A DNA stretch of 64,000 nt, from assembly GCA_947642555.1 (NCBI GenBank), contig CANRSX010000026.1, positions 1 to 64,000 on the forward strand, in the 5' to 3' direction. Position numbers and translations under genes: made by a program. The stretch's first letter is position 1; every line of letters begins with the position of its first letter. This DNA comes from an uncultured Roseburia sp. (lineage in GTDB: Bacteria; Bacillota; Clostridia; Lachnospirales; Lachnospiraceae). Below are positions 5,937 to 43,330 of the stretch, piece by piece. Below the pieces are notes generated by a model, which did not search any database, was not told the origin of the DNA, and saw only the letters and a list, made by a program, of their open reading frames with translations.

Positions 5937-5948
5937 TATGCTCTGCAC

Positions 5949-21880: not shown

Positions 21881-22051
21881 TTACATGAAAATGTTTAAGA
21901 GTGCCAGCACCACCCAGAAAACAGTGAGCACAATATGTACGATTTTTAATGCCTTGTTCTTCGCACCGACCACGAGGGCCACACTGTACACTGCAAGCAC
22001 AAACTCCAGAATACTTACCACCACATTCGCACTTAATCCTGTTCCAAGCAT
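21881..22051 (-). CDS. 56-aa two-TM protein, candidate Asp5/SecG-like subunit of the accessory translocon
   Basis: This short gene closes the accessory Sec operon, 25 bases after gtfB. The peptide begins MLGTGLSANVVVSILE, has a first membrane segment at about residues 9-28, a short basic loop (GAKNKALK) and a second segment at about 38-56. The topology and length match SecG-type subunits: two TM helices with a short cytoplasmic loop. In streptococci the same position is held by asp4 and asp5, small membrane proteins with SecE/SecG similarity. The start codon follows AGGAGGAAAAATG; an ATG three bases earlier is possible. No SecE-like partner was found nearby. The identification rests on position and topology, not on a sequence search. 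Confidence 0.6.
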   Translation of the reverse strand: MLGTGLSANVVVSILEFVLAVYSVALVVGAKNKALKIVHIVLTVFWVVLALLNIFM

Positions 22052-22076
22052 CATTTTTCCTCCTGCTATTAAAAAA

Positions 22077-23429
22077 TTATTTCAAAAGATCCGCATATGC
22101 GTCCACATCTTCCGACATGGCTGCACATCTTTGCAGATCAAGTTCCCCTGTTATGCGTTTCTCCCGGCCCATCACCTCCCTTAAGAAAGCGATCAGTCCG
22201 TCATGGCTGTCAAACACATGCTCCGGCGCAATATACGCCCTGTTATGCAGCGTCTGACGGAATCCGACGATCAGCTGATTGTGTAAAAACGCCTGTTTCA
22301 CCGCCGAGACAATCTCATTCTCATGATTGATATCCAGATAATAATCGCAACTGTCAAACAGCCGGTCAAGCTGTTTTGTTTTCACCCCCGGATACAGCTC
22401 CACATTCTCATATTGCGACAGACTCATCAGCTTTGACGACATCTCAGTCAACGCCGCAATATGAAACTTCATCTGTGGAATCTCCTTCACGAGCTCCTCA
22501 CATTTCTCGATCCGGTCTGAATTCGTGCAGATCAGCGCTTCATTCTGAAACGTATTCTGTCTGCTGTACGCATAGGCAAAGCCGAGCGGTTTCAATATCT
22601 CCTTCGATGCGCCAAGTTCCGTCAGTTTCTCATAACTGCTCTTTTTCTGCACATAGATGGAGCGCGTACGCCTGGCATCCCCACGTAAGATCAGCTGCAT
22701 ATTTCCCGGTATATCGTCTCTGGCATCCTCCTGCCAGAACAGGACGTCCTCCTGTCTGTCAGCAGGCATCCGCTCCGATACAAACAGCGGTGTCGAAAGG
22801 GAATTAAAGAAAATCCTGCTTCCCATGGCCCCAAGCTCTTCCAGAAATTTTAAAATAAAATCCACCCTGCTTTTCCAGACATAAACACGTCCGCTACGGT
22901 TTAGGATAATGTCGTTCGTCACAAAATTCTCCACGATCACCTCCCTGCCCTCCGCGTCGAAATACGACTTGCAGAAGCGTTTCGCCTCTTTATTAAACGT
23001 CGTTCTGGCATATAACGCACCGTAACGGTTGTAGTGGTCGCTCGTTCTGACCGTTCCGTTTTCATCCAGCCAGTCCACGACGCGCACCAGCCGCTTATGC
23101 TTCGGCTCGGCATAAAAGATACGCCCCCGCTCGCGGTTCAGATCATGCACCCTCCCGTCCGAGTTATTTCCGCTGATCTCCCAGTAATCCGGCGCATTGA
23201 TCTGATTAAAATACCGCGCTTTTCCCGGCGCCTTACCGCTCTTTTGAAACGTTCCGCAAAAATACTGATAAACTGATATCACATCCTCCGGAAAAAATCC
23301 GTCGTCCGTAATCACTGCCACCGGCCCCTTAAAACCAGCGCTTCGGAAGGACTGATGGAGCAGCTGACTCTCCTCCGTGTAGTTGTCCAGTAAAAGAACC
23401 GCATCTGTCATCCCACTACTTTTTTCCAT
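22077..23429 (-). CDS. gtfB: GtfB, accessory Sec glycosylation chaperone/co-glycosyltransferase subunit
   Basis: The 450-residue GtfB acts with GtfA to place the first GlcNAc on Ser/Thr of the SRR adhesin. It recognises the acceptor while GtfA is catalytic. The N-terminal add-on domain (VITDDGFFPEDV ... VHDLNRERGRIFYAEP) and a GT-B-like C-terminal half (FHIAALTEMSSKL ... YLDINHENEI) are both complete. It overlaps gtfA by 22 bases, with GAGGAGGTGG placed seven bases before the ATG at 23429. A truncated paralogue lies at 42584-43330. It should be cytoplasmic, working before export. Confidence 0.92.
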   Translation of the reverse strand: MEKSSGMTDAVLLLDNYTEESQLLHQSFRSAGFKGPVAVITDDGFFPEDVISVYQYFCGTFQKSGKAPGKARYFNQINAPDYWEISGNNSDGRVHDLNRERGRIFYAEPKHKRLVRVVDWLDENGTVRTSDHYNRYGALYARTTFNKEAKRFCKSYFDAEGREVIVENFVTNDIILNRSGRVYVWKSRVDFILKFLEELGAMGSRIFFNSLSTPLFVSERMPADRQEDVLFWQEDARDDIPGNMQLILRGDARRTRSIYVQKKSSYEKLTELGASKEILKPLGFAYAYSRQNTFQNEALICTNSDRIEKCEELVKEIPQMKFHIAALTEMSSKLMSLSQYENVELYPGVKTKQLDRLFDSCDYYLDINHENEIVSAVKQAFLHNQLIVGFRQTLHNRAYIAPEHVFDSHDGLIAFLREVMGREKRITGELDLQRCAAMSEDVDAYADLLK

Positions 23430-24898
23430 CGAAGCTCCACCTCCTCTGTCAGAAATTTCTTCGCCTTCTCATAAGAATGCGCGTGAAAGCTGTCAGAATC
23501 CGCCTCCGTAAACAAACGGATCAGGCGGTCCGTCAGCGCTTCTATCTTCTGTGCCTGCGTCATATCCTCACTGACCGGAATCAGATATCCGTTTTTACCG
23601 TCATCAATAAACGTCGGATTTCCGTATCTCACATCAAAACCAATGATCGGAAGTCCCCCGCCGATTGCCTCCATCAGAGTCAGCCCAAAGCCCTCGCTCA
23701 TGGATCCCGATAGATATAGTTCATATTCCTGATAGACCTCTTTTAAATTCTGCTGGCCGCGGAGCACAATATATTGTTCCGCGCCATACTTTTTTATCAG
23801 CTCCTTAAGCTTTGTCTCCTCGCCGCCTTTTCCATAGATATCGAGCGTCAGCTGCGGAACCGTCTCACGCGCCTTTACCACAGCTTCAATGATCCAGTCG
23901 ATATGTTTTTCCAGCGCCAGCCGCGACGCTGTCAGAATCGAATACGGCCTGCGGCTGATCGTCGGATACTTCAGCGCATCCAGACTCCCCACAGGAATCG
24001 TATAAACAACCGGCTCCACACCCATATATGAGAAAAACTGCTCCTTTAACAGCCGGTTCTGCTCCTCGGTCGCCGTGATGTAAAAATCGACGTGCCGGTT
24101 CATGGCAAACGAATATTCATAATAATTATTCCACAGGATGTAATCCTCATCCGTGCTTCCCTCGCTAAAATGATCCGCGTGAATGACGATCCCCACCCGT
24201 GCCCCGCCAGCATTCCGAAGAATCGCCTGACCGATTCCGGTCGTACGGTCGATCAGTACCGTATCCTCCTTTGTAAGCTTCAGACGCGATATCATATATC
24301 CCACCAGCTCTTCCTTCGAGCAGAAAAACCGGTCCGGGAACTGGTACATCACCTTTCCGTCATCACTGATCTCCTCATAAGCCACTGTACCGTCCTCGTT
24401 AAAATAGCGGCGCAGATACAGATGCGCTTTATTATCTAACGGTGCATAATACTCCGCAAAGGTTCTGCCGTAAGTAAAATAATCCTTCCGGATCAGATAT
24501 CCCTCTGAGACAATCTCCACACGGTGAACCAGCTCTGACTTCCCGTCCGTAAAGTAGACGCTGTAGAAATTATTTTTCCCCGGAAAAACAATTCTTCCGG
24601 TCTTTCCCGTTCTGGTGTAAGTATACTTCTCTGTGGGAAGCGTCCGTTTCAGATCGTCAAGCGTATAGGAAACCGGCGCGATCTTATAGTCCGTAAAAAA
24701 AGTGTACAGCCAGATCACTTCCGAGTCCAAAAAACCAATATTTTTTGTCAGATGCTCGATATTTTCTGCTGTAATCAGATCCGTAAAAATAAATTTTGCG
24801 TCCGCTCCGATATTCCGAAACATCACCGCCCGGTAGCTCTGCGCGTATTCCACTCCGCTGGACGCCCAGCCAATCCCAAGATTAATGTTATAAATCAT
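23408..24898 (-). CDS. gtfA: GtfA, accessory Sec O-GlcNAc transferase
   Basis: This 496-residue GT-B glycosyltransferase opens with the family hallmark IYNINLGIGWASSGVEYAQ. It carries the EX7E motif (E402 to E410 in SEGFGLTLME) used for UDP-sugar binding, and an add-on domain at about 60-210 that contacts GtfB. With GtfB it starts O-glycosylation of the serine-rich adhesin. The start follows ACAGGAGA. It sits between secA2 and gtfB, as in Streptococcus gordonii, with a 66-base gap after secA2. A divergent GtfA paralogue is encoded at 36606-38159. Confidence 0.94.
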   Translation of the reverse strand: MIYNINLGIGWASSGVEYAQSYRAVMFRNIGADAKFIFTDLITAENIEHLTKNIGFLDSEVIWLYTFFTDYKIAPVSYTLDDLKRTLPTEKYTYTRTGKTGRIVFPGKNNFYSVYFTDGKSELVHRVEIVSEGYLIRKDYFTYGRTFAEYYAPLDNKAHLYLRRYFNEDGTVAYEEISDDGKVMYQFPDRFFCSKEELVGYMISRLKLTKEDTVLIDRTTGIGQAILRNAGGARVGIVIHADHFSEGSTDEDYILWNNYYEYSFAMNRHVDFYITATEEQNRLLKEQFFSYMGVEPVVYTIPVGSLDALKYPTISRRPYSILTASRLALEKHIDWIIEAVVKARETVPQLTLDIYGKGGEETKLKELIKKYGAEQYIVLRGQQNLKEVYQEYELYLSGSMSEGFGLTLMEAIGGGLPIIGFDVRYGNPTFIDDGKNGYLIPVSEDMTQAQKIEALTDRLIRLFTEADSDSFHAHSYEKAKKFLTEEVELRWKKVVG

Positions 24899-24964: not shown

Positions 24965-27289
24965 TTAAGGAAACAATACATACATCTCACCCGTTTTGCT
25001 GTATGCGGCTTCCCCAAGAAATATATTTCTCACAATTTCATTCTGAATGGTACGCTCCATGCGAAGAAACGAATCATACGCCTCCATGTGATATTCAAAC
25101 ACCGGATTCCTCTGGGCAGAGGCACGGCCGCTGACCACATACTGCAGCTGCTGTAAGTAATCCACCTGTTCCACCCAGGCATCGTCTATCGCGTGCAGAG
25201 CACACAGACGGATATATTCCTTTAACTCTTTTGCTGATGAAAATGATCTCTTTTTCTTCTTCCATACGCTGTTGATATAAGAGATCAGCGCCCGTTCCAG
25301 CGCCTTTCTTTTCACCTGGCCAATCTTTAAGAATCTGCCGTCCAGGTTATACGAGATATGATTCAGCACATATCCTGTGATATCCCCTGTCGTCAGATGG
25401 CGGTTTTCAAATAAAAACAAATGTATGCCCTCGTATGCCATCTGCAGTACAACTTTAAACTCCAGGCTCCCGCCGTCTAAAAGCCGGTTTCTGGCCTCAT
25501 ACATCATCGTCCGCTGACGCTTCATCACTTTGTCATAGTCAACAGACCTTTTTCTCTGTGATACGGCCATCTCCTCCTGAAGCTTCTGTGTCCCGTTGAT
25601 CAGCCGCTTTAGCTTCCGATTTGAAATCCGGTGATCTCTGTCGACATACTTTTCCAGCGTCTTCTCCCCTACCGCAGAAACCGCGTCATCCTCAAGCGAA
25701 ACAAAAAACTGGCTGCATCCCGGGTCACCCTGACGGCCCGCACGGCCTCTCGCCTGCCGTTCCAAACGGATATTAGCCATACGCCCGATGCCGACCACAG
25801 CAAGCCCTCCCAGCTCCTTTACCCCCGGCCCCAGCCGGATATCCGTGCCCCGCCCCGCCATGCCGGTAGAGACGGTCACCGTGCCCTTCTGCCCGGCCTC
25901 CTTTATGATCTGTGCCTCCCAGTATGCGTTATTCGCATTCAGCACGCTGTGCGCCACCTTCCGTTCGATCAGCACGCGGGACACCAGCTCGGTATCGGCA
26001 ATTGTCGACGTCACAATCAGTACCGGCTGTCCGGTCGCATGGCGCTTTAACACCTCCCGGACTGCAGCTTTATACTGCTCTGTGGCATTTTTAAAAAACA
26101 GGTCTTTCTGATCCACTCTCTGAAGCGGCCTGTTTGGCGGGATAATGACGACGCTTTTTTTATAAATTTTGCGAATCTCACTTTTTGCGTCCGAAATCGT
26201 CCCGCTCATTCCCGATAAACGAGGGAACAGCAGGAACAGATTCTGATACGTTACCGATGCGACCGATCGGTTCTCCTGCGTGATTGTCAGCTTTTCCTTC
26301 GCCTCGATCGCCTGATGCATCCCACCTCTTAGCTTCATCCCCGGAAGGACGCGTCCCGTACCGTTGTCGAGCAGCGATACCTCGCCTTTTTCGGTAACCA
26401 CATAATCTTTGTCCCGCTCCATCGTAATATGGGCTTTTAACGCAAGCGTCACATGCCGGTTCAGTTCAAAATTCTCCGCTTCATAAAATCCGTTTATACG
26501 GAAATACCGTTCCGCCCAGGCGACTCCCTCGTCGGTGAGCCATACGCTCTGATCCTCCTCCACGTAATCGCGTCCGGACTGCAGCGTCGTCACAAAGAAA
26601 TCTGTCATCTCATACAGATTGGACTGCACGCGCGGCGCGCCGGATATCACGAGCGGCATCGTGGCAGCATCCATCAGCACCATATCCGCCTCGTCAATAA
26701 TAACGTAGTAAAATTCCCGCATAAACCGTTTTTCTGCACTGGAAACCAGATTATTTAAGAGGTAGTCAAACCCCAGCACCGAATGTGTCGTATAGACAAT
26801 ATCCGCCTGATATACCTCGCGTTTTGCGTCGTTATTGTGATCTTCCTTCTGGTCCACATTCACACCGGAGCGCACCGTCATCTCCAAAAACACATAGACC
26901 GGCCCCATCTCCTCCGCATCGCGTTCCGCCAGATAATCATTTGCTGTGACCAGCATCGTGCTCTTCCCTGTCAGGGCATTCAGATATAACGGCATGGTCG
27001 CCGTTAACGTCTTACCCTCCCCGGTATTCATCTCGGCCAGGCAGCCGTAATGCAGCGCGATTCCTCCAAGGATCTGACAGTCATACGGCTCCATCCCAAG
27101 GATCCTCCGGTCCGCCTCGCAGATCGCCGCAAACGCCTCCGGCAGAAGCTGGTTCGTCGTTTCCCCGTCTTTTATCCGTCTTCGGAACTCCTCTGTCTTC
27201 CCGCTTAATGCATCATCGCTTAATTCCCGCATCGCCGGCTGTTCCTTTTTTACTTTTTTTAAGATTCGATAAAGCTTTTTATTCGTCAT
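24965..27289 (-). CDS. secA2: SecA2, accessory Sec preprotein translocase ATPase
   Basis: This 774-residue SecA paralogue drives export of the glycosylated adhesin. It has Walker A (MNTGEGKT, 87-94), Walker B with DEAD (199-202), the helicase motif GMAGRGTDI and GRAGRQGDPG. It lacks the C-terminal zinc-binding tail of housekeeping SecA and ends soon after the helical scaffold (final residues YVLFP). Its start overlaps the asp3 stop by 11 bases. Position between asp3 and gtfA and its shortened length distinguish it from SecA1. Confidence 0.95.
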   Translation of the reverse strand: MTNKKLYRILKKVKKEQPAMRELSDDALSGKTEEFRRRIKDGETTNQLLPEAFAAICEADRRILGMEPYDCQILGGIALHYGCLAEMNTGEGKTLTATMPLYLNALTGKSTMLVTANDYLAERDAEEMGPVYVFLEMTVRSGVNVDQKEDHNNDAKREVYQADIVYTTHSVLGFDYLLNNLVSSAEKRFMREFYYVIIDEADMVLMDAATMPLVISGAPRVQSNLYEMTDFFVTTLQSGRDYVEEDQSVWLTDEGVAWAERYFRINGFYEAENFELNRHVTLALKAHITMERDKDYVVTEKGEVSLLDNGTGRVLPGMKLRGGMHQAIEAKEKLTITQENRSVASVTYQNLFLLFPRLSGMSGTISDAKSEIRKIYKKSVVIIPPNRPLQRVDQKDLFFKNATEQYKAAVREVLKRHATGQPVLIVTSTIADTELVSRVLIERKVAHSVLNANNAYWEAQIIKEAGQKGTVTVSTGMAGRGTDIRLGPGVKELGGLAVVGIGRMANIRLERQARGRAGRQGDPGCSQFFVSLEDDAVSAVGEKTLEKYVDRDHRISNRKLKRLINGTQKLQEEMAVSQRKRSVDYDKVMKRQRTMMYEARNRLLDGGSLEFKVVLQMAYEGIHLFLFENRHLTTGDITGYVLNHISYNLDGRFLKIGQVKRKALERALISYINSVWKKKKRSFSSAKELKEYIRLCALHAIDDAWVEQVDYLQQLQYVVSGRASAQRNPVFEYHMEAYDSFLRMERTIQNEIVRNIFLGEAAYSKTGEMYVLFP

Positions 27290-27722
27290 CTATGATTTCC
27301 GTTATCACAATCGAGTGAAAATGAAACTGCGTCGCCCCTGTACCGATCAGCTGCACCTCATAGCTGAATGTTTTTAACGGGCACTGAAAGTCCGCCCCTC
27401 TGTCCCTTACGACCTGGCTTCCCACCTCCACATCATAACGGTCATAAAAGATCAGCTTTAAAATCAGCCCATCAGAAGGCTCTGCGGAGGCATCCAGGCT
27501 AATATGATACCGGCCTTCCCCGTCAATCATCGGGAGCGACGGTTCCACTCGCATCATCTGATAATTCACCCTGGAAAACCAGCTCTTTATCACGGTTCCC
27601 GGCGGCATCAGCTCATTTTTAAATTCCACGTCATCCTTTGCATGAAAAACCAGTTCGGAACCGTACAGGTACGTACCCTTTGTATATTCATTCCAGTGTA
27701 TGTTCCATGATTCGCCTGTCAT
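27279..27722 (-). CDS. asp3: Asp3, accessory Sec system protein
   Basis: This 147-residue Asp3 starts MTGESWNIHWNEYTKGTYLYG, the characteristic opening of the family, and is rich in beta strands, like the carbohydrate-binding-module fold shown for Asp3. In known systems it binds Asp1 and Asp2 and keeps the adhesin export-competent. Its ATG overlaps the asp2 stop (ATGA), and its 3' end overlaps secA2, so the three are translated in a coupled chain. Confidence 0.92.
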   Translation of the reverse strand: MTGESWNIHWNEYTKGTYLYGSELVFHAKDDVEFKNELMPPGTVIKSWFSRVNYQMMRVEPSLPMIDGEGRYHISLDASAEPSDGLILKLIFYDRYDVEVGSQVVRDRGADFQCPLKTFSYEVQLIGTGATQFHFHSIVITEIIDDE

Positions 27723-29266
27723 CGTCTCCGTCTCCGTCTGCCTGTCCCGCTTCGCATGTCATCAAATTCATTCTGAATGATTTCCCGGTACTGGTTCACA
27801 AACCAGCTCACAATGCCGGAAGTCTCATCATTGTGCCGTCCGTGCAGCCCTTTCCCGTAAATTTCCGTATCGGCATCCTTTAAGTGGGACTGAAGCTGCC
27901 CGTATGCCGTCTGATCATAATCATCTTCTATCATGTATGCCACCGCAAATCTGGTACCGCTCCAGTCCGCCCGGTCAAATGCATTCCAAAACCTGTCATT
28001 TAACCGCATAACGGCATCCCCGTCAAGCTTTCCGCATACTTTGTGAAGAACATCCAGCGAGGTAGGGAAACCTCCCGGACGGCTGATCCGCTCATTTTGC
28101 GCCACATCGCCGATACTTGCCAGGGGTTTTCCAAGAAGTATGGTATTCGGACGGATCCGGCAGCCGTAATACAATGCCCCGAAGGTTCCCATGGAAAGCC
28201 CGGATAAAATCACATCGGAGGGACCAAGCTTTAGTTTTTTCATGTGGCTCCGGATAATCTGTTCAATGGAACGCTCAAACTGCTCCGATCCGAGATAAAA
28301 ACCTCCGCCTTCCAGCCTGGTTTCCGTGATCAGAAGGTACGGATGCCCCATTCCCCGCATCATATAATATCCTTCAAACCCTTCCTGCGTTTTATAACCG
28401 GAGAAATAAACGTTTAACGGCGGCTTTAAATTGCCTGGATCAAAATAATAAAAAATTTCCTCCCGATCCGGCGTTACCACACGTTTCCCGCCGGGTATAA
28501 AGTTTCCTTTTCCCCTTCTTGAACGGCGGTCATGCAGCGCCGTGACCGTCAGACGTCCTTTTCCCCGCGCCCGAAGGGACGCAAATGCATGTCCTCTGAC
28601 TCCGTCTGTATTTTCTATGTATACAATGTCCTTAAGATCCTCTTCCGAAAACGTACAGACACGCTGCGACGCGGGTTCCGTGCCGTATGCAAACGTAAGA
28701 AGTATGATTTCCAGCGAGATCTCTATCGTGTCGTCCTTCGCGTATTCCAGCCAGAATTCAATCGGCTCCTCGATGGGGATATTATTCCGCCAGAAAACAA
28801 TCTGCTTCTGGTCGTTCCCATAATCCCCGTCAAGATCAACGCCCTCAAATCCTCTCCAGGCAACCCTTCCCTGAAAACTCTGCGCCACGGAAATGTGATG
28901 CGGGTTAAATTTCTCTCCGTAGGAACCGGAAAAATAATCGGGCAGGTCATCCCGCAAACATTTCTCCAGTTCTTTCTTCGAAAGCTTTTTTCCCATCTTT
29001 CTGACATAAAGGCGCTGTGTCGGGCTTCCTTTTTTCAGCGGAACACGTTCTGTCAGAAACAGACAGTACGCCCGCAAAAACCGTATCAGATAATCCGCTT
29101 CGCCCGCTGTTACTTCCCGGTCCAGAACTGCCACGTCAAAATCCGTTTCCGGCAGCTGTGAAAAGTACGGCTCATAATACCACTCCGCACAATCCGACAC
29201 CTGCATCGTCCTGCTATAATCTTCTGTTCCCAGCTGCAACACCCGTATTGTTTTCAATGTCTGCAA
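27719..29266 (-). CDS. asp2: Asp2, accessory Sec protein with acetyltransferase/hydrolase triad
   Basis: This 515-residue Asp2 has an alpha/beta hydrolase domain in its second half. The nucleophile elbow is GLSMG (Ser358), an acidic residue lies at Glu447 and the likely His is H478 in GLHGRHND. They match in order and spacing the triad known to O-acetylate GlcNAc on the SRR adhesin of S. gordonii. The enzyme is therefore probably active, unlike a purely structural Asp protein. The frame begins with TTG (29266 or 29257), inside the asp1 3' end, with AGAGG upstream, so the start is uncertain. The protein ends in six consecutive arginines, an unusual basic tail. Confidence 0.92.
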   Translation of the reverse strand: MQTLKTIRVLQLGTEDYSRTMQVSDCAEWYYEPYFSQLPETDFDVAVLDREVTAGEADYLIRFLRAYCLFLTERVPLKKGSPTQRLYVRKMGKKLSKKELEKCLRDDLPDYFSGSYGEKFNPHHISVAQSFQGRVAWRGFEGVDLDGDYGNDQKQIVFWRNNIPIEEPIEFWLEYAKDDTIEISLEIILLTFAYGTEPASQRVCTFSEEDLKDIVYIENTDGVRGHAFASLRARGKGRLTVTALHDRRSRRGKGNFIPGGKRVVTPDREEIFYYFDPGNLKPPLNVYFSGYKTQEGFEGYYMMRGMGHPYLLITETRLEGGGFYLGSEQFERSIEQIIRSHMKKLKLGPSDVILSGLSMGTFGALYYGCRIRPNTILLGKPLASIGDVAQNERISRPGGFPTSLDVLHKVCGKLDGDAVMRLNDRFWNAFDRADWSGTRFAVAYMIEDDYDQTAYGQLQSHLKDADTEIYGKGLHGRHNDETSGIVSWFVNQYREIIQNEFDDMRSGTGRRRRRR

Positions 29267-30881
29267 TAACCTCTTTCCACTGTCCGATCAGATATTCTGT
29301 GGTATGTGTCCTTCCAAGCTCATAGGAACAGATCAGCGCCTCATTCCAGTTGTTTAAACTCTCCAGATAAAATGCCAGATCTTCCCCCAGCGCGGACAGA
29401 TCCGTGTTAATCCGGCCGTTTTTTCCGGGACGCATATACTGTGTGGCAGTCCTTACGATCTGCGGGATTCCCATGCTCACACAGGATATCTGCAAAAACA
29501 GATCAGGAGTATCCGCCAGATCCAGCAGAACCCTCTGCTCCCGCACACACTTGTTTACCGATAATTCGTCGACGCACTGTTCCACCACAAACAGAATCGG
29601 GATCTGATCTTCCCGTTCCAGCTGAAACTCAGACTGGTTCGGATTCTCTGCCCTCGCCCACTCCGGCGGATACCCGTTGTGTTTTAAAATACCGCTCACC
29701 TGCCCCAGCAGGACATCGCCTTGTGAAAACGCTGCATTCCTGGTAAACAGATGCACCCTGGCGTCCGGATTCCCCTTCAGGTATACCGCCAGATATTTCA
29801 CAGCCTCCCCCATCGTCTCTGCGGAAAGATGATCCACAGGAAACAGGATTTTCTGCACGTGAAGCTGCTGGCTGATCCCCGGGTCAAGTCTGGTATCATA
29901 GGGCGGAATATTGATCTTCGCGGTTTCTCTCAGCTCGTCCCGCCCGGAGAGAAGCTTCAGATTGTCCTCCGAATCCGTCACGATATAATCCGCATGGGAA
30001 AGCGTCTGCACCGCTGCACCGCCGTCTCCATAGCCTTCGTCTCCGGGGAAATTCCTGCCAAAACATTTCTCAGGCGAAAGTCTGTCTCCGAAGATCGAAT
30101 AGATCGTTTTTCTCTCCGAAAGCAGCCTGTCCAAAAGAGCCAGATGCTGCATATGCGCCGCTGCGCAGAACAGATCCGTCTCCCGTGTGTTCTTTAGGTA
30201 AGAGGCAGACACCTCCCCGATCACCTCTTCCATGGAGGCATAGGATTTTTTTAAAAAGGGGATCATCTGTTCCCCCTCCGGCGTTTCGATCCGATACTGA
30301 TTGCTGCGCGGATTCACCACCACATGTCCGTCCGCAAAGTAGCAGAGCTTCCAGACGCCTTTTTCTGTCAGATACTGCTCGTACGCCTTCACACCGTTCT
30401 CATATACAGCCGTACAGGACACAAACCCCCTGTCGTCATAAATGTTTTTCCGGTTCATCTGACCGTTCTGGTAGAGATCCACCTGTATGGGATTGCCGTA
30501 TTCCCCGAACTCAATATTCGCATATTTTTCGTGATCCAGCATGGCAAGAACCGAAAACGGCGTATAGACAAACTCAATCTCCCGAGGCCAGTTTAAGCTG
30601 TGAAACGACAGAATCGCCTGCTTTTTCCTGCGCACCTCCTGAATCGCGTCAAACACCGACCAGCAGGGAACGCGGAAAATACTCTGCCTGTGCAGAAAAT
30701 GCCTGAGATTCGGCGCGTAGGACAGCAGCAGGATCTGATATTCGCAGACGGAATTCCTCTGAAACAGCTGGATCTGTTTGACGGTGTCATCCGTCTCTGT
30801 CTGCATCCGGCGCCTGTACCAGAGCTGTTCATTTTCTTTCCATTCATCCTGTAAATACCAGGCCGGGATAAAGTACAACAT
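29214..30881 (-). CDS. asp1: Asp1, accessory Sec system protein
   Basis: This 555-residue Asp1 begins MLYFIPAWY, the family signature, and follows the GT-B-like organisation of known Asp1, which is thought to bind glycosylated SRR regions rather than transfer sugar. Its segment AVYLKGNPDARVHLFTRN and the C-terminal SALGEDLAFYLESL are typical of the second Rossmann-like half. It lies between secY2 and asp2; its 3' end overlaps asp2 by about 50 bases in another frame. It forms the Asp1-Asp2-Asp3 complex that meets SecA2 at the membrane. Confidence 0.92.
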   Translation of the reverse strand: MLYFIPAWYLQDEWKENEQLWYRRRMQTETDDTVKQIQLFQRNSVCEYQILLLSYAPNLRHFLHRQSIFRVPCWSVFDAIQEVRRKKQAILSFHSLNWPREIEFVYTPFSVLAMLDHEKYANIEFGEYGNPIQVDLYQNGQMNRKNIYDDRGFVSCTAVYENGVKAYEQYLTEKGVWKLCYFADGHVVVNPRSNQYRIETPEGEQMIPFLKKSYASMEEVIGEVSASYLKNTRETDLFCAAAHMQHLALLDRLLSERKTIYSIFGDRLSPEKCFGRNFPGDEGYGDGGAAVQTLSHADYIVTDSEDNLKLLSGRDELRETAKINIPPYDTRLDPGISQQLHVQKILFPVDHLSAETMGEAVKYLAVYLKGNPDARVHLFTRNAAFSQGDVLLGQVSGILKHNGYPPEWARAENPNQSEFQLEREDQIPILFVVEQCVDELSVNKCVREQRVLLDLADTPDLFLQISCVSMGIPQIVRTATQYMRPGKNGRINTDLSALGEDLAFYLESLNNWNEALICSYELGRTHTTEYLIGQWKEVIADIENNTGVAAGNRRL

Positions 30882-35100: not shown

Positions 35101-36445
35101 TAGTATCCTCCAGTATATAGGAAATCGTTCCATCCGGGTTGATCTGGCGACTCGGGTTCGTATATACCTTGCCATTGATCGTAATGACAACATCCGTTCC
35201 GCCCTTTCCGTCAGGTATAATTTCATAACTTGTAACCGGCGCACCATTCGTCGGAATCTCTGTCGGCCTGGCATCATGATCACCCTTGATCGTCACCTGC
35301 GTACCGCCTGTAACCTCATATTTGATCTCCGCCTTATTTACATTTACATTTCCCTTTTCATCTACAGAGTACTGATATACCTCTGAGAGCTGTCTTCCCA
35401 GACTGTCCTTAAAATAAACCGTATAATAGCCGCCCTGGTCATCACTCCATACGATTCCACCTTTGTCCAGCGTCAGTCCCCGGCTGGCAAGTTCAAACTT
35501 AATGATACTTTCCGCCACAACCTTCTGCTGTGCTCCAAGTTCTTCCACTCCCGCCATGGAGGTGGACGCCAGCACGGACTGCGCCGAATCATATGTAGAA
35601 AGCGCATCTGCCGTACTGCCCGTCACGCTGCCAAACGTATGGCTTTCTGACGTGCTCTCATACTCGCTCTGCGACTGGCTGATAGTTGCGCTGGTCGATG
35701 TGCTCTCGGACACCACAACCGAATCACTGGTTGACGCGCTCGTCGAATTTGATTCGGACGTGCTGACCACAATACTGTCACTCGTTGAAGCGGAACCTGA
35801 TTCAGATTCGCTTGTACTGTTATAGCTGTCGGAATCCGATACCGCATCGCTCAAGTTCGACCCGGATGTCGACTGCACCTGATCCCAGTTCTGCTGAGAG
35901 TCAGAATCAGCGCTGCTGTCCTGGCTGTCCTCTGACAAAGTGCTGTCCTGGCTGTCCGGCGTCTCTGATCCCGGCTGGGTATCCGATTCAGACTGGTTCG
36001 AATCCGTCCCGCTTCCCGCATCGTCCGAAGTACTGCTCTCAACTGTGTCGGTCGGATCCGTTGTATTCTGATCCGCAGCGTCAGCTCCCGGCTGCGTCGT
36101 ATCTGCGGTTCCGCCCTGATCTGTGACATCTGATCCCGGCTGCATCGTATCCGCAGCGTCAGCTTCCGGCTGCGTCGCTTCTACGGTTCCGCCCTGATCT
36201 GCAGGATCAGCCGACTCGCTCCCGACCGGGTTCTCAAAAACAGTCTCGGAAGCCGCTGCCGTCGTCTGCAGCTCTGACTGCGCGAACGCTGCCTCTGACG
36301 TCTGCTGTACATCCAGCTCGCTTTCCAGCTCCGCTGCAAATACCGCATTTTCGTTCATCACGGCTCCGCCAAGCACAAGACCGGCTGCGCCGGCTGCCTT
36401 CAGAACCTTATTTGCTTTGCTCCTTTTACGGTTTTTTTCGTTCAT
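32195..36445 (-). CDS. Serine-rich repeat (SRR) glycoprotein adhesin, substrate of the accessory Sec system
   Basis: This 1416-residue surface protein starts with a basic n-region ([10 protein letters not shown]) and a glycine-rich signal core ([14 protein letters not shown]), likely cleaved after residue 37. The glycines are a known feature of accessory Sec substrates. Residues ~38-290 are a Ser/Thr/Asp-rich SRR1. Residues ~295-600 form a non-repetitive binding region with repeated Tyr/Gly/Asn motifs. Residues ~628-1268 are SRR2, made of S-[LIV]-S-T-S-E hexads. The tail holds an Ala/Pro stretch, two EEVPLA motifs and a Trp-rich segment ([13 protein letters not shown]) with a basic end. No LPxTG is present. 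The start follows GGAGGG. Its ligand is unknown. Confidence 0.93.
32640..34340 (-). repeat. 18-bp hexapeptide repeat array of the SRR2 region
   Basis: About 75-80 copies of an 18-bp unit encode S-[LIV]-S-T-S-E. Longer super-repeats are also seen; for example a block of about 126 bp recurs with offset 180 bp at 33712-33838 and 33892-34018. Copy number is likely to vary by recombination. The array contains no stop on the opposite strand, which explains the long false ORF there. Confidence 0.9.
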
Positions 36446-36605: not shown

Positions 36606-38159
36606 TTAAAAAATCGGGTCTGCTGTAAGACGCTTTTCCAGCAGATCCTTCCATTTTTCTTTGATCACATCCATGGAAAACTCTTTTGCAATCTCATAAG
36701 ACTTTTGATGGTACTCCTCCAGCCGTTTTTCGTCTGCAAATAGTTCAAGAATCGTTTCGGCGATGGCGTCCGTCAGCTCCTCGTCATTCCCATCCACATA
36801 GTCCCTGTGAAAATCAACACGATAACCATTTTCTCCGGAACGGATGAACAGCCGGTTGCCGTATTTTACATCCAGCCCGATCATTGCCGTCCCCGAAGCA
36901 ACCGCCTCCATGAGAGAAAGCCCCAGCGTTTCCCACAGGGAAGACGTGATGTATACCTGGTAATTCTTATATACTTCCGTCATGTCCGCCCATCCCATAA
37001 AATGAATATAGGACTCCGCCCGGTTCTGCGACACCAGTTTTTTCAACTCTCCAAGGTGTCCGTCGTCACGCCCGTAGATATCGATAAAAATGTCCGGATT
37101 TACCTGATGCGCTTTTACCACGCTTTTGATCAGCCAGTCGATTCTTTTACGTTTGTCGATGCGCGAAACGGAAATCAGCGAACAGGGCCGTCGCTTTCCC
37201 TCCGGGCGCCGAAGGCATTCAATCCCTCCCGCCGGGATGACCGCAATATTCGGAACGCTGCGGCGATACTCCAGAAGCTTCTCCGCCAGCTCCCTTTTCT
37301 GCTCCTGCGTCGATACCACCATCGTATCGATCTGCTCAGAATAGCGAAAACAGTAATCGTATTCCTTATTTAAATACAGGTCATACGGATCCTCCCCTTT
37401 TTCGTAATAATGACCGGAATGCATGATAACAATCAGCCTGGCTTTTCCTTTGGAGCTGAATATCGGCTGCAGGAAATCAAACCTTGCGGGACGATCCAGC
37501 AGGATGACGTCCTGTTCTTTTAACTCCAGCTTCCGGATGAATGCAGTCAGAAGCTGCTGCTTCGTATACCTCCTGCCATCCGGGAAAAGATACCATTCCT
37601 TTTCCCCTTCAAAGATCTGATCACAGGCAGCTGACCCGTCACGGTTATAAAACGTGCGCCTCACCAGCTTCGCATACATCCCCTGCCCCGACACAGCCGT
37701 CACAAAATAATTTACATAGGCGACCCCGTCCGTATACACCTCCGTGCGGACCAGCTTTGCCTGATTATAATAATGAATCGAATGATAAAAGCCCTTCTGC
37801 TCCCCATCCAGCTGAATTGCAGCGATAATGGCCCCGTCGCGGATCAGCCTGATCTCATGCTCCTTCCGCTCTACTGCCGTGGCGCGCAGATTTGCGCTTA
37901 ATTCCTCCAGCTTTTCCTCCGCCTTTCCGCTTAGCTCCAGCGCAGGATGATCCGTAAAATACTGATGCATGCCAAGCATCTGGCCGGTTCTGATCCCTGC
38001 TCTGCCATAAAAGGCAAGATCGCGTCTCGTTGGAGGTTCCGTGAAGATATATCTGACAGGATATGGCGCATCCGCCAGCATTCTGGCCCGATATCCCTGT
38101 GCTCCGTCGACCCCGCTGAATACATATCCTGACATCAGGGTAAAGATATAAACTGCCAT
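36606..38159 (-). CDS. GtfA-like glycosyltransferase (second copy)
   Basis: This 517-residue GT-B protein is a divergent GtfA paralogue. The start VYIFTLMSGYVFSGVDGAQGYRA parallels the GtfA opening but lacks the IGWASSGVE wording. An add-on domain is kept at about 60-215, and the EX7E motif is intact (E410 to E418 in WETLGLSLME). It probably transfers a sugar onto the adhesin or onto its glycan. Its start follows TAGGAGA. It is the last of four glycosylation genes before the adhesin. Its natural partner may be the short GtfB-like protein encoded at 42584-43330. Confidence 0.82.
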   Translation of the reverse strand: MAVYIFTLMSGYVFSGVDGAQGYRARMLADAPYPVRYIFTEPPTRRDLAFYGRAGIRTGQMLGMHQYFTDHPALELSGKAEEKLEELSANLRATAVERKEHEIRLIRDGAIIAAIQLDGEQKGFYHSIHYYNQAKLVRTEVYTDGVAYVNYFVTAVSGQGMYAKLVRRTFYNRDGSAACDQIFEGEKEWYLFPDGRRYTKQQLLTAFIRKLELKEQDVILLDRPARFDFLQPIFSSKGKARLIVIMHSGHYYEKGEDPYDLYLNKEYDYCFRYSEQIDTMVVSTQEQKRELAEKLLEYRRSVPNIAVIPAGGIECLRRPEGKRRPCSLISVSRIDKRKRIDWLIKSVVKAHQVNPDIFIDIYGRDDGHLGELKKLVSQNRAESYIHFMGWADMTEVYKNYQVYITSSLWETLGLSLMEAVASGTAMIGLDVKYGNRLFIRSGENGYRVDFHRDYVDGNDEELTDAIAETILELFADEKRLEEYHQKSYEIAKEFSMDVIKEKWKDLLEKRLTADPIF

Positions 38160-38210: not shown

Positions 38211-40331
38211 CTAAGCACAAACCATCCCAGCAATCTCCTCCCGCAGCTTTTCATATCCTTCATATGCCATCGCTTTTGCAAAGGAAGTCAGCTCGCTTTT
38301 CGCCAGCTCCTTTAACAGGCCAGATCGTTCCTGACTGCCATGCTCCAGGTAAAACAGAATGGATCTTTTGTGATCCAGGAACACTTCCTCTTTTGACCTC
38401 CCGGCCCACTGATCCACAAGAGATCCGCTGCAGCTGCTTCTGTCATACTCGTATCCGAACGCATTCACATAGCACACGTTTTCCGCAAATGATAACAGAT
38501 ACGGCGTCCACGCTTCATCCTCATACCGGATCAGCGGAAACGGATGCTCTTTTACAAGAGCGGTGCGGTAGAGCTTGTTCCAAACCGCCGGCATCGCGTA
38601 TCCTCCGGCGGCATAGATCCGAAGAAATTCCTCCGCAGCGACAGGCGTATCCTCATTTACAGCATATTGCATTACGGGACTATAGCCTCTGTGTGAAATC
38701 TCATAGCCGGACGTCATCGCAATATCGCACTGGTTCTTTTTTGCAGAAGCATAGAGCCGTTCTGTCATATCGGGCCTGATCATATCATCGCTGTCAACAA
38801 ATGCGGTGTATTCTCCTCCCGCACGCAGGATCCCCGCATTCCTCGCCGCCTGTACGCCCGCATTCTGCTGATGTATCACCATGACATTCGGATAATGCTC
38901 TGCATACCAGTCCGCAATAACCGGCGTCTGATCCGTACTTCCGTCATCCATGATGATCACCTCCAGCGCCTCAAAGGTCTGTGCCAGCACCGTATCAAGC
39001 GTTCGGATCAGGCTGTCCTGAGCATTGTATGCCGGAATCACCACACTGACGGACGGGCCTGCCACGTTTTTTTCACGCAATAAAGCCTGAGAGGATTTCG
39101 ATTTCGCCACGACCATTTTCCCTTTTGGCGTGTTGATGTAAGCTTTTATAAAAAAATATTCTTCTTCTCCGTATCCTCTTATCAGCATATAATGCTGATC
39201 GCTGTTTTCCGCCGTTCCTGTCAGCTTTCCGGACGAATCATAAATGAGAAATCCGTCCGGTTTTCCAAGCAGATTCCAGGACAGCGCAGTATTCCCCCCA
39301 TAGGATCGCCCCGTCACTATGGATGTAAATTTAAAATCTCCCGGCTCATATATGTCTTCCGACTGCGCATATGGCGTTCCCACATCTTCACGAAACAGCG
39401 ACCACACAGCCTCTGTCAGACATTTTTTCGTATAATATCCGTTTCTTAAGGCAGGCGCAAACCGTCCGACATGCCGCACATATTCCCGGTATTCCGACTC
39501 CTCCATGTCCGCAACTGCCTTCACAGCTTCATCCAGGGAACCCGCGACCAGGCCGAGATGATTTTCTTCGATCAGCTTCTGACAGGATATTCCTGCCGGA
39601 ACGATCACAGGAATACCCGCGGCAAGATACCGGCTCACAGAAAAGGAATTGCTATATCCCATATACTCGCGTGCGGTTTCATCCTGATACCATTCCAAAC
39701 CGAATCCACCCTCTGACAATTCCGCCAGCAGCCCGTCCCGGCCTGCTGCATTGTGCTGCCTGACCGGCACCCCGCAATCCCGGTTTTGAAACAGCGCGGG
39801 AAGCATCCCGGCACAATGAATCTCCCTGCGGAATTCAGGTTCTTTTAAAAACGAGAGATTCGTCGTACAGTCCCACATTTCCTGAATCAGAAACTTCATG
39901 CCGGCACGAATACCGGCATCCAGAAGAAACTGTTTCATCTGAATAGAAGGAACGATCAGCGCTTCCGCCTGATTATACAGTTCCACCGTCTCATTCAGCA
40001 TAAAGCGGCTGCTTTTTACCATTAATGCTTCCACACTTTGAATAAAAATGATGATCCGGCCATGGTATGCTTTTATGTGCTCGACCAGCGCCCGCTCAAA
40101 CCGCAGCCCGTTCCATGTATGAAGCTGACAGATCACGATATCCCCCGCGGAAATACCTGCAATCATTCCGTCAAACCGTACCGCACGGTCTCCCGGCTTT
40201 TCGGCATTTGCATTATAATAATAGACGCCCATTTCCCGAAATCCCAGCTGATGCGCCGTTTCGGCCGTCATATACTGCAGGGACTGCAGGATATTGTTCA
40301 TTCCATTTAAACGGGTAATGTACAGGTTCAT
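38211..40331 (-). CDS. Gtf3-GT2 fusion glycosyltransferase (first copy)
   Basis: This 706-residue two-enzyme fusion has an N-terminal Gtf3-like domain (about 1-330; MNLYITRLNGMNN ... TAHQLGFREMGVYYYN, then EENHLGL), of the type that adds the second sugar to SRR proteins. A beta-rich linker (about 340-420) follows, with a GT2 family GT-A domain from about residue 428 (VSVVIPAYNAQ, MDDGSTDQT, DSDD metal site). The second domain could extend the glycan. The start follows GGAGGAGTAA. It is a paralogue of the neighbour at 40367-42520, and the two together suggest a multi-sugar chain on the adhesin. Sugar donors cannot be read from sequence. Confidence 0.83.
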   Translation of the reverse strand: MNLYITRLNGMNNILQSLQYMTAETAHQLGFREMGVYYYNANAEKPGDRAVRFDGMIAGISAGDIVICQLHTWNGLRFERALVEHIKAYHGRIIIFIQSVEALMVKSSRFMLNETVELYNQAEALIVPSIQMKQFLLDAGIRAGMKFLIQEMWDCTTNLSFLKEPEFRREIHCAGMLPALFQNRDCGVPVRQHNAAGRDGLLAELSEGGFGLEWYQDETAREYMGYSNSFSVSRYLAAGIPVIVPAGISCQKLIEENHLGLVAGSLDEAVKAVADMEESEYREYVRHVGRFAPALRNGYYTKKCLTEAVWSLFREDVGTPYAQSEDIYEPGDFKFTSIVTGRSYGGNTALSWNLLGKPDGFLIYDSSGKLTGTAENSDQHYMLIRGYGEEEYFFIKAYINTPKGKMVVAKSKSSQALLREKNVAGPSVSVVIPAYNAQDSLIRTLDTVLAQTFEALEVIIMDDGSTDQTPVIADWYAEHYPNVMVIHQQNAGVQAARNAGILRAGGEYTAFVDSDDMIRPDMTERLYASAKKNQCDIAMTSGYEISHRGYSPVMQYAVNEDTPVAAEEFLRIYAAGGYAMPAVWNKLYRTALVKEHPFPLIRYEDEAWTPYLLSFAENVCYVNAFGYEYDRSSCSGSLVDQWAGRSKEEVFLDHKRSILFYLEHGSQERSGLLKELAKSELTSFAKAMAYEGYEKLREEIAGMVCA

Positions 40332-40366: not shown

Positions 40367-42520
40367 CTACATCTGTTCGATCTCTGACCGCAGCTCTTTA
40401 TACTTTGAATATGAATGCATGCCCATACATGCCTCTACATATGCCAACGCCAAACGTTTAAGCAAATCTATTTTTTCTATATTTCCATTTTTTAAGAAAA
40501 ACGTAATAAATTCCTTATGATCCAAAAATTTTTCCTCAATAGGTTTACTCCATGAAGCGTGAATACCTGTAGTAGTTCGAATTGTCCTGTCATATTCATA
40601 CAAATGTGCATTAATATAACAAACCTGTCTGGCAAAAGATAAAACATATGGTGTCCATGCATCGTCTTCGTATGTCACGTTTACCGCAAACGGGTGCTCT
40701 GTCACCAGCGACACCCGGTAAAGTTTATTCCATATCACAGGAGAAAGACTTTTCATATAATATTCCAAAAACTCATTCACTGAAACAGCTGTATTCTCAA
40801 CAAGCGGGTAAGTAGCCATTTCTGTATATCCTTCCCGCGTCAGCTGGTATACAGACGTAATCACTATATCACAATCATTCTTTAAAACAGCAGCATACAT
40901 CCTCTCCATCATATCCGGACGTATCATATCATCATTATCCATAAAACCAATATAATTCCCGGCTGCATATGTAACCCCCATATTCCTCGCCGATGCCTGT
41001 CCCCCGTTTTCTTTATGGAAGACTTTCACCTGTGGAAATCGTTCCCTGTACCATTCAAGAATCTGCTGCGTCTGATCCGTACTCCCGTCGTTTACAATGA
41101 TAAGCTCCATATCCGCAAAGGACTGTGCCAGCGCGGTATCAATGCTCCTCGCAATATACTCTTGCGCGTTATATGCGGGCATAATCAGGCTGACCTCTGG
41201 CTGTACCGGACGCTTTTGCGCCAGCTCCGCCACACCGGATTCCGCCAGTATCATCTTTCCTCTCACAGCCCTGACATAGGCTTTCACAATAAACCGGGAT
41301 TCTTTCGGCTCGTTTTGTAACAGCAGATAATGTTCCAGCCCGCCGGATACCTCCCCGGCCACCTTTCCGGTATCCGCGTCACAGACCAGAAAGCCTTCCG
41401 CCTCTCCCCGGAATGTCCATGATATTGCCAAATGATGTTCATACGATTCGTTGACGCAGACATACTCGAAGAAACCAGCAGGCATTACAAATGTCTCCTG
41501 TGACTCATAATACAGATACATGTCCTCCCGCATCGCCATCTGCATGGCATCCATGAGACACTTTTTTGTGAAAAAACCTTCCCTCAGCAGAGGGGCAAAC
41601 CGTTCCACTGCCGCCACATATTCCAGATACTCCTGTTCTGAGATCTGCTTTATAAATTCCGCCGCTTCGTCTAACGTATCCACGATAACGCCGAGATGAT
41701 TTTCCTCAATCAGACACTGATTTGAGATTCCACGCGGAACGATCACCGGAATTCCTGCGGTAAGATATAAGCTGAGTTTTAAGCTGCTGTTCACCGTCAG
41801 ATACCGATATCCGTTTTCACCGCCATACCATACCAGCCCGAATCCGCCCTTCGATAATTCCAGGCAAAGACGATCCGAAGGCATCCATCCTTTTTTCTGC
41901 ACATTGCCGCCCGGACACGCCTGATCGGAGTACACATATAATGGCGCCTCGTAATCCCATGTATCCGGAAAACCAGCGCTGCCCGGATCTCCTGCATAAT
42001 GAATGCCCCGCTTCAGGCCGTTCTGCTCCGACCTGTACGGATTCAGCGTGACATCGAGCATTTCCTGAACAATAAACCTCATACTGCCACGGATTCCCTG
42101 GCGGATCAATAGCTGCTTCATCGCATCTGACGGGACAATCAGCGCTTCCGCCTCATTGTATAATCCTGCCATTTCTGACCATACAGGCTGGCGCCCCTCT
42201 ATGATTCCAGGCTCCATCTCACGGACATAAATGATAACACGGCCGTGATACGCCCTGATATGTCTCACCAAAGCGCGATCAAACTCCAGTCCGTTCATCG
42301 TCGGAAACTGACAGATCACAAAGTCTCCGGCAGCAATCCCGGCAATGATCCCATCCAGTCTCCGATTCCGGTGCTCCAGACTTTCATCTGCCGCATTGTA
42401 CCGATAGATTCCCATCTCCCTGATTCCAAGCGAATGCGCGATATCCGCCGTCCTATGCTGCACAAACTGCTCCGTACTCCGGGCAGGCATACCATTTAGT
42501 TTCGTAATATAGATCTTCAC
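40367..42520 (-). CDS. Gtf3-GT2 fusion glycosyltransferase (second copy)
   Basis: This 717-residue paralogue of the previous gene has the same three-part layout: a Gtf3-like domain (KIYITKLNGMPARS ... ADIAHSLGIREMGIYRYN), a beta linker and a GT2 domain (VSLIMPAYNAQEYI, VNDGSTDQT, DNDD). I place the start at GTG 42520, because GGAGGAAACTGTT sits eight bases before it and Gtf3 proteins begin with the KIYIT strand. The upstream ATG at 42535 lies within that ribosome binding site. The last third is more AT-rich than the rest of the window (for example 40480-40620), hinting at recombination or different origin. Confidence 0.82.
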   Translation of the reverse strand: MKIYITKLNGMPARSTEQFVQHRTADIAHSLGIREMGIYRYNAADESLEHRNRRLDGIIAGIAAGDFVICQFPTMNGLEFDRALVRHIRAYHGRVIIYVREMEPGIIEGRQPVWSEMAGLYNEAEALIVPSDAMKQLLIRQGIRGSMRFIVQEMLDVTLNPYRSEQNGLKRGIHYAGDPGSAGFPDTWDYEAPLYVYSDQACPGGNVQKKGWMPSDRLCLELSKGGFGLVWYGGENGYRYLTVNSSLKLSLYLTAGIPVIVPRGISNQCLIEENHLGVIVDTLDEAAEFIKQISEQEYLEYVAAVERFAPLLREGFFTKKCLMDAMQMAMREDMYLYYESQETFVMPAGFFEYVCVNESYEHHLAISWTFRGEAEGFLVCDADTGKVAGEVSGGLEHYLLLQNEPKESRFIVKAYVRAVRGKMILAESGVAELAQKRPVQPEVSLIMPAYNAQEYIARSIDTALAQSFADMELIIVNDGSTDQTQQILEWYRERFPQVKVFHKENGGQASARNMGVTYAAGNYIGFMDNDDMIRPDMMERMYAAVLKNDCDIVITSVYQLTREGYTEMATYPLVENTAVSVNEFLEYYMKSLSPVIWNKLYRVSLVTEHPFAVNVTYEDDAWTPYVLSFARQVCYINAHLYEYDRTIRTTTGIHASWSKPIEEKFLDHKEFITFFLKNGNIEKIDLLKRLALAYVEACMGMHSYSKYKELRSEIEQM

Positions 42521-42583
42521 AACAGTTTCCTCCATCTTCCAGAATCAGTTTCCAATGACGCTGTGTATTCTCAGATCTCATGA

Positions 42584-43330
42584 TCAGAAGACCGCGCAAA
42601 AACGGTATCCGCCTGTTCCGCCCATGTCTGCATACTGATTCAGCAGCTCCTGCTCTGAAAACAGCACAGACTTCCATATACATGCTCCTCCGGATCCCGT
42701 GTTCAAACGCTGCATTCCTTCTCTTTCCTGCAAACAAAGTATGTACGGTTCTTCCAATCCCATTTCTTTCAGGTAATATGCAATAAATCCGTCATAAGAG
42801 GTGAAAAACGCTTTTGTTTCGCCTCCCAGCGACAGCGCAACCGTCCCGCTTAACGACTGTTCCACAATCACCTCATGGTTACCGGTCGTATAAAATACCT
42901 TTGATTCCACTGTCCCGGCCAGATCCAGAAACTCGGACGCATATTTCAGGCCGTATTTATTATAGAGGTCCCTCTTATAGACCCGGCCATCCTCCATGCA
43001 CCATTCCACACGCTGCACGTTTCGCTTTTCCCGTGGCTGTGCAAAAAAAATGTCCGCCTTTTTGCAATTCATATCATAAACCGCTCCTTGCGAACCGGCT
43101 GCACGGATCTCCCAAAACGCAGGCACTTCTATAAAATCATAATACAATTCTCTTTTTTTCGGAACCTCATGCGGCGCTCCGTAAACAAAATATTCATACG
43201 GCGACAATACATGATCCGGCAGAAAACCATCATCTTTTAAAACTACAATATGCGATTCTGTTTCAAAGCCTCTCATCGTCTCCTGTAATGTTTCTATCAT
43301 GTCGGAATAAATATCACATACAATTGTCAT
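42584..43330 (-). CDS. Truncated GtfB-like protein (N-terminal half only)
   Basis: This 248-residue protein matches the first half of GtfB: VVLKDDGFLPDHVLSPYEYF, VYDMNCKKADIFFAQP and the add-on domain up to about residue 215. The second GT-B half (about 200 residues in the full GtfB at 22077-23429) is absent. The frame ends cleanly at 42584, and the next gene starts 64 bases later, so no frameshifted remainder is visible. It has a good ribosome binding site (AAAGGAG). It may be a working acceptor-binding subunit freed from its Rossmann half, or a decaying duplicate. It is the first gene of the glycosylation group. Confidence 0.75.
   Translation of the reverse strand: MTIVCDIYSDMIETLQETMRGFETESHIVVLKDDGFLPDHVLSPYEYFVYGAPHEVPKKRELYYDFIEVPAFWEIRAAGSQGAVYDMNCKKADIFFAQPREKRNVQRVEWCMEDGRVYKRDLYNKYGLKYASEFLDLAGTVESKVFYTTGNHEVIVEQSLSGTVALSLGGETKAFFTSYDGFIAYYLKEMGLEEPYILCLQEREGMQRLNTGSGGACIWKSVLFSEQELLNQYADMGGTGGYRFCAVF

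Follow-up and report, generated by a model that had tools for sequence, protein, structure and literature searches.

The 64,000-nucleotide (nt) stretch of DNA analyzed here, from contig CANRSX010000026.1 of an uncultured Roseburia sp. (the window), carries a complete accessory Sec (aSec) locus on the minus strand at 21881–43330, as indicated by the map of open reading frames (ORFs) and by profile matches. It is highly probable that this is a glycoadhesin export locus of the SecA2/SecY2-Asp1-3 type and that it represents a clostridial lineage. The core of the locus looks ordinary. What is new is the signal of its substrate, the tail of the substrate, and a small gene associated with that tail. 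Position numbers are those of the window; L numbers denote loci and G numbers denote genomes of relatives.

In the order of transcription, the locus consists of gtfB2 (short), dgtB, dgtA, gtfA2, the gene for a serine-rich repeat (SRR) protein, secY2, asp1, asp2, asp3, secA2, gtfA, gtfB, and a gene for a membrane protein of 57 amino acids (aa) (Table 1). A preliminary description had proposed this aSec gene set, and every gene it named was found, on the minus strand and close to where it had been placed. It had also reported the gene order of Streptococcus gordonii and overlapping junctions. The core order is indeed that of S. gordonii, but here the extra enzyme genes precede the adhesin gene. 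Overlaps are present at asp1/asp2, asp2/asp3, asp3/secA2, and gtfA/gtfB, but the remaining junctions are gaps of 22–160 nt.

The identity of the proteins was judged by the NCBIfam curated cut-offs. Asp1, Asp2, Asp3, SecA2, GtfA, and GtfB score above them. A failure of profiles to match Asp1-3 had been named as grounds for rejecting the locus, and all three match. SecY2 models are the best matches of the SecY2 protein, but the scores are below the cut-offs (TIGR02920, 199.7 against 249.6; PRK12417, 228.7 against 353), which weakens this reading of the locus. The other objection that had been foreseen, that SecA2 and SecY2 are the housekeeping copies, does not hold. The same genome has another SecA on contig C3, separate from the SecA2 of the locus, and another SecY on contig C4; with PF00344, the C4 copy scores 371 bits and the locus copy 146 bits. 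There is one Asp2 match in the host genome. Its Ser354, Asp444, and His474 are invariant across eight aligned sequences, and their spacing (+90 and +120) equals that of the S. gordonii Asp2 triad, given as Ser362-Asp452-His482 in a passage of PMC5578698.

A scan of named genomes yielded 289 relatives, of which the best 80 are mostly titled Lachnospiraceae or other clostridia. The titles of the nearest loci are consistent with Lachnospiraceae as the probable host family. A gut-adapted version of the system had been put forward as a possibility; some titles of relatives name gut samples (for example, water deer rectum and colon), and those of the nearest loci give no source. The phylogeny of SecA2, which had been suggested as a check, placed the window in a separate clostridial group that excludes the sampled Bacilli-type rows. 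In a 40-row tree, a 100/100 branch sets off all 29 clostridial-group rows, and a 100/99 branch the nine Bacilli-type rows. In a 56-row quick tree, with the other SecA of the host as the outgroup, 43 of 43 clostridial-group rows clustered together; the Bacilli-type rows were not one group, and the position of the root is not firm. Rows titled Olsenella and Holdemanella fall within the clostridial group, and the lineage is also seen in records titled Eggerthellaceae. The nearest row is from Dorea sp. 5-2 (L056), 83–84% identical. Two aSec loci from the window's own family, L175 and L177, have long branches and are positioned between the clostridial group and the Bacilli-type rows. The SRR protein of L175 also has a short GxxxGG signal.

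The SRR gene most likely begins with the ATG at 36445, preceded by the ribosome-binding site GCAGGAGGGAAT, rather than at 36517. The serine profile displays the layout SRR1, binding region (BR), and SRR2. The BR is 28–57% identical to those of seven other loci, and AlphaFold2 predicted it to be beta-rich (mean predicted local distance difference test (pLDDT) score of the best model 86.8; five models 56.3–86.8).

Known SRR signals are about 90 aa long (range 55–101), according to a passage of PMC6973325. The signal in the window is ~37 aa, and the long signal of SRR glycoproteins is thus absent. Thirty long serine-rich ORFs with a visible start were surveyed, after one duplicate was dropped. 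Of these, 27 show a GxxxG[GAS] core with a cleavage-like site after it, and the signal is 31–42 aa in 25 of the 27, counted from the farthest nearby ATG. Longer signals were observed in L069 (52 aa) and L078 (57 aa), which become 47 and 26 aa from the nearest ATG. The three ORFs without the core are those of L042 (no recognizable signal), L061 (wrong frame), and L160 (Bacilli-type genome). KxGKxW is in none of the 30, while the protein of the streptococcus-like L034 has KSGKNW and a signal of ~90 aa. In S. gordonii, altering G75/G79/G80 in the hydrophobic core sends GspB to the general Sec system, as a passage of PMC5578698 reports. The GLVLGG of the window has the same spacing as these glycines, which supports a probable aSec dependence of the adhesin. 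The signal is less than half the usual length but keeps the core, so that the role of the long N-terminal extension becomes testable by comparison. In Pseudobutyrivibrio, proteins of 712–787 aa with a similar short signal are encoded near the SRR gene (L081, L085, L095, L110, and L116); they are possible additional aSec substrates.

The other end of the adhesin is also unusual. No xPxTG was found in its last 80 residues, and the LPXTG anchor is thus missing. LPXTG-like motifs are present in 6 of 66 clostridial-type loci versus nine of nine Bacilli-type loci, counted over distinct visible tails, one per locus, with four duplicate tails dropped and with loci without a picked SRR ORF (23 clostridial-type, two Bacilli-type) and cut ones (one of each) left out. 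L034 encodes two SRR proteins, with ends of the LPNTG and LPETG types. In the window's subclade, the tail is WWSWIPVxGAxASxVxxYRxNK, except for L055 (VPKTGD) and L052 (NWSWIPVIGA). Pseudobutyrivibrio tails are mostly of the WWYWIL type, and the Schaedlerella group has an HxQHxCE-type end. The SRR proteins of L059, L061, L062, L063, L064, L066, L069, L074, L083, and L105, from Olsenella, Mobilibacterium, Pseudoramibacter, and their kin, end mostly in the ...VVPLQVKH type, with neither a clear transmembrane (TM) stretch nor LPXTG. These proteins, one of which is at least 2357 aa long, may therefore be released or otherwise held.

Directly 3' of gtfB, a protein of 53–59 aa is encoded. Among 16 sequences, Leu16, Glu17, Tyr23, Ser24, Leu27, Lys34, Ile38, Trp47, and Asn54 are invariant. 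AlphaFold2 predicted two helices (residues 9–30 and 34–56; mean pLDDT of the best model 80.9). Neither Pfam nor NCBIfam gave a SecG or Asp match for the protein, and no PDB chain matched it at E <= 1. By position after gtfB, the small gene is present in 15 of 15 assessable loci with the WWSW tail and is missing from all 28 with other tails; a further 27 loci were not assessable. Profiles of the small protein and the tail (A3 and A4) were also run at E < 1e-10 against 59 whole genomes, which cover 50 of the 80 named loci and include 10 others. The small gene was found in 19 genomes, the tail in 18, and neither in 40, and all 18 genomes with the tail have the small gene. As the profiles were built from most of the loci that they were then matched to, only the absences and the cases outside the profiles are informative. 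One such case is the genome G1251. Of 272 genomes from the family to which the Holdemanella genome belongs, three matched at E <= 0.001: the source genome, G1251, and G1140, whose match (E 2e-4) lies inside a 598 aa frame. G1251, which is outside both profiles, has aSec genes, two copies of the small gene, and a WWSWVPIVGA tail. In L243, near-identical copies of the small gene (5444–5614 and 7458–7628) flank a 517 aa gene after gtfB, which is glycosyltransferase-like by its sequence. L055, which lies within the subclade beside L052 (91/85), has neither the tail nor the small gene. Over the SecA2 tree, the link between the tail and the small gene is suggestive.

We infer that the WWSWIP tail would stay in the membrane, possibly through the small protein, and would replace sortase attachment. 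A stronger proposal, which we make tentatively and consider rather unlikely, is that the WWSWIP tail and the small protein are a dedicated sortase-independent anchoring pair for aSec glycoproteins, that other clostridia have other tails or none, and that retention was re-invented several times outside Bacilli. The small protein would meet the tail when the adhesin emerges from SecY2 and would hold it in the membrane, with the invariant Glu17 of helix 1 as a candidate partner of the nearly invariant Arg of the tail. Other clostridial lineages would use WWYWIL..., HxQHxCE..., or no tail.

Several observations weigh against this proposal. The hydrophobic stretch of the tail is short, and membrane retention is therefore a guess. 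The shared state of tail and small gene requires only three changes on the SecA2 tree. Most positive cells in the genome search follow by construction from the way the profiles were made, and L039/L051 and L048/L050 are near-copies. The small proteins of G1251 differ from that of Holdemanella (L114, in the profile) at two or three residues, so that G1251 is hardly independent. The L052 tail, outside the profile, fits with one W-to-N change, but it is a variant (NWSW, not WWSW). In G1049, the small gene is present, but no tail match reached E < 1e-10. L106 has a WWWWIPIVGA tail without the small gene and marks the limit of the rule. A few weaker matches are seen in other genomes (tail, E 0.0004–1; small gene, E 0.04–1).

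It is possible, although on balance doubtful, that the 57 aa protein serves in the SecY2 channel as a SecG/Asp5-like subunit, that the tail is a mere membrane anchor, and that their co-occurrence reflects common descent. The small gene occupies the position of asp4/asp5, just 3' of gtfB, and the independent changes on the tree are few. Two TM segments are predicted for Asp5, according to a passage of PMC5076819, which reports asp4/asp5 for some streptococci, and the AlphaFold2 model of the small protein is a two-helix hairpin. In contrast, hhalign gave a probability of 0.5% against two Asp5-like and 0.4% against four Asp4-like sequences, which is a weak test at such length, and the missing SecG/Asp match in Pfam and NCBIfam is likewise a weak profile test for a short protein. 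The SecY2 of L055, 58% identical to that of the window, occurs without the small gene, and so does that of the 28 assessable loci with other tails, wherever secY2 is visible.

Sortase anchoring through an unrecognized motif is improbable. The host has seven sortase-domain matches. In L025, L026, L028, and L055, NPKTGD, NPETGD, or VPKTGD follows DEEVPLA-type repeats, a type kept in the window, and the window has a weak match to NF033073, the model of doubled LPXTG anchors (25.4 bits; cut-off 48). Against this stands the absence of xPxTG described above. The sortase B sorting-domain model TIGR03063 served as a control: it matches the NPKTGD tail of L028 (27.7 bits; cut-off 18.15), and the window, L042, and L053 are not among its listed matches.

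The preliminary description had counted four extra glycosylation genes and had expected a richer glycan. Three of the genes are full length. Residues 4–334 of dgtB match 3rhz and 3qkw in PDB, and residues 448–650 match GalT1 (5hea); these structures are presumably Fap1 glycosylation enzymes of S. parasanguinis. The halves of dgtB thus match Gtf3-type enzymes (3rhz, 3qkw, 4w6q, and 9hu9) and GalT1; in the window, the two are fused in one polypeptide that is present twice, dgtA and dgtB being paralogues with 45% identity. The GT2 part of dgtA contains a DxD-type motif (DSD at residue 513), whereas the pattern search detected none in that of dgtB. The EX7E motif of gtfA2 is intact (ETLGLSLME). 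The fourth gene, gtfB2, is truncated and its C-terminal half is absent, which counts against the main reading of the locus. Its match covers only positions 1–193 of the 438 in TIGR02919. It encodes 248 aa, versus 408–439 aa in five of the seven best-match ORFs (L039, L051, L084, L088, and L165); of the others, L060 has 176 aa and L073 is cut by the contig end. The expectation of a richer glycan is partly supported, by the three full-length enzymes, two of which are the Gtf3-GT2 fusions. Judging from these sequences, the glycan is likely to be longer than GlcNAc (N-acetylglucosamine) alone. The set and position of the extra enzymes vary among close relatives, as expected for a variable cassette.

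By analogy with streptococcal work (PMC5578698, PMC5076819, and PMC6973325), we infer all enzyme, export, and anchoring activities of the locus proteins. As in S. gordonii, GtfA and GtfB would modify the serine repeats with GlcNAc in the cytoplasm and Asp2 would O-acetylate it, while GtfA2 and the two Gtf3-GalT1 fusions would extend the glycan. Asp1-3 would then pass the preprotein to SecA2, and it would be driven through SecY2. The glycosylated stalk would keep the beta-rich BR clear of the cell. The missing half of gtfB2 might indicate decay of the locus, but a non-functional locus is very improbable, as all core genes and the adhesin gene are open and gtfA, gtfA2, and asp2 retain catalytic motifs.

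Among clostridia, the system has a patchy distribution but is not rare, as the 289 relatives indicate. Asp2 was found in 9 of 60 genus genomes sampled, in 12 of 299 family genomes (10 over the cut-off), and in 4 of 398 phylum genomes (two over the cut-off), with the source genome included each time. In the class of G351, it was found in 30 of 299 genomes, G351 included (25 over the cut-off). Of the eight other genus genomes with Asp2, six have whole secA2 (L025–L030), all in other subclades, indicating that the loci were exchanged or differentially lost among clostridia. Two aSec loci per genome bin, judged by the same record prefix, are seen in L040/L106, L046/L058, and L082/L091; L046 and L058 are both in G1041. 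In L080, L097, L100, L108, and L111, titled Pseudobutyrivibrio and Butyrivibrio fibrisolvens 16/4, asp2 follows the SRR gene without secY2 or secA2 in the visible stretch (~3300–11500). Four of these five also have a membrane-like gene of 340–371 aa before asp2. The remaining aSec genes come a few kb farther on in L107 and L116.

Recent acquisition from Lactobacillales is scarcely credible: the lower G+C content of the locus (0.493 versus 0.555 and 0.551 in the flanks) and its patchiness in the genus fit transfer between clostridia as well, the 100/100 branch separates the clostridial group from the Bacilli-type rows, SecA2 is 84% identical in Dorea sp. 5-2 but 62–63% in the Bacilli-type L162 and L170 and 51% in L034 (part), and Asp2 is 34–43% identical in 16 named Staphylococcus, Enterococcus, and Lactococcus plasmid records versus up to 72–73% in clostridia. 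The clostridial export locus thus has many relatives and is not a recent import from lactobacilli.

On one side of the locus is an ORF that weakly matches an Rpn-type model (43553–44464), and on the other an AAA-ATPase_like/PDDEXK_9 gene (20136–21797). No tRNA gene was found within the 64-kb window. A regulator-like gene with a BTAD domain is located at 45225–46523. Its relatives, 19–33% identical, lie upstream of the SRR gene or operon in L048, L050, L051, L053, L056, L084, L088, and L031, and it is a candidate regulator.

Table 1. Features of the aSec locus in the window.
Feature	Position	Strand	Description
gtfB2	42584..43330	-	248 aa, N-terminal portion of another GtfB-like protein; TIGR02919 151 bits, below cut-off
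dgtB	40367..42535	-	Gtf3-like domain fused to GT2/GalT1-like domain; PDB sequence matches, Pfam GT2
dgtA	38211..40331	-	Paralogue of dgtB, same two-domain plan
gtfA2	36606..38159	-	Second GtfA-like glycosyltransferase; TIGR02918 389 bits, below cut-off of 574.6
SRR adhesin	32195..36445	-	1416 aa; signal, SRR1, BR, SRR2, tail
Adhesin signal peptide	36335..36445	-	~37 aa, GLVLGG (GxxxGG) core, VFAAE end
Adhesin BR	34610..35569	-	320 aa, beta-rich, relatives in seven other loci
Adhesin SRR2 stalk	32618..34570	-	SLSTSES-type repeats; approximate limits
Adhesin C-terminal tail	32198..32302	-	W-rich sequence and charged end, no LPXTG; tail profile A4
secY2	30935..32137	-	SecY2 is top NCBIfam match, below curated cut-offs
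asp1	29214..30881	-	TIGR03713 405.6 bits, cut-off 136.1
asp2	27719..29266	-	TIGR03712 488.5 bits, cut-off 210.75; Ser354-Asp444-His474
asp3	27279..27722	-	TIGR03711 133 bits, cut-off 67.25
secA2	24965..27289	-	TIGR03714 949.6 bits, cut-off 930
gtfA	23408..24898	-	TIGR02918 729.4 bits, cut-off 574.6
gtfB (glycosylation chaperone)	22077..23429	-	TIGR02919 503.5 bits, cut-off 338.3
Small membrane gene	21881..22054	-	57 aa, two helices; proposed partner of adhesin tail

The closest described counterpart is the GspB/Hsa locus of S. gordonii, whose order in a passage of PMC5076819 is secY2-asp1-asp2-asp3-secA2-gtfA-gtfB-asp4-asp5. The locus tags there place gly and nss between the adhesin gene and secY2. 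The window shares this core order, Asp1-3, SecA2, SecY2, GtfA/GtfB, the Asp2 triad, the SRR1-BR-SRR2 layout, and the GxxxGG spacing. It differs in the signal of ~37 aa instead of ~90 aa, in the lack of LPXTG, in the Gtf3-GT2 fusions and second GtfA, and in its clostridial-group SecA2. There is no recognizable Asp4 or Asp5 in the locus, and another small two-helix protein is encoded in their place. The nearest named relative, the locus of Dorea sp. 5-2, has the same tail type and the small gene, and its BR is 49% identical. Its dgtA-type enzyme is downstream, not upstream, gtfA2 and gtfB2 are absent from the visible stretch, and its SRR gene contains a run of N.

The aSec papers considered here concern Bacilli, with a long signal and LPXTG as the standard. 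Among the matches listed in the open-licence PMC literature, no account of a clostridial SRR-aSec locus, of the short signal, or of the tail was found. PMC7446861 mentions accessory Sec and Lachnospiraceae, but a passage in it links its Sec genes to lactobacilli. A separate and widespread clostridial lineage keeps Asp1-3, SecA2, SecY2, GtfA/B, and GxxxGG. SssP1 of S. suis and some lactobacillar and streptococcal SRR proteins also lack LPXTG, and a passage of PMC6973325 treats such proteins as exceptions or possible pseudogenes. In the window's subclade, the lack of LPXTG is the rule, L055 excepted. Compared with SssP1-type proteins, the window adds a W-rich tail that is conserved and an accompanying small membrane gene, a pair that suggests an unrecognized route for the surface retention of exported glycoproteins in Gram-positive cells.

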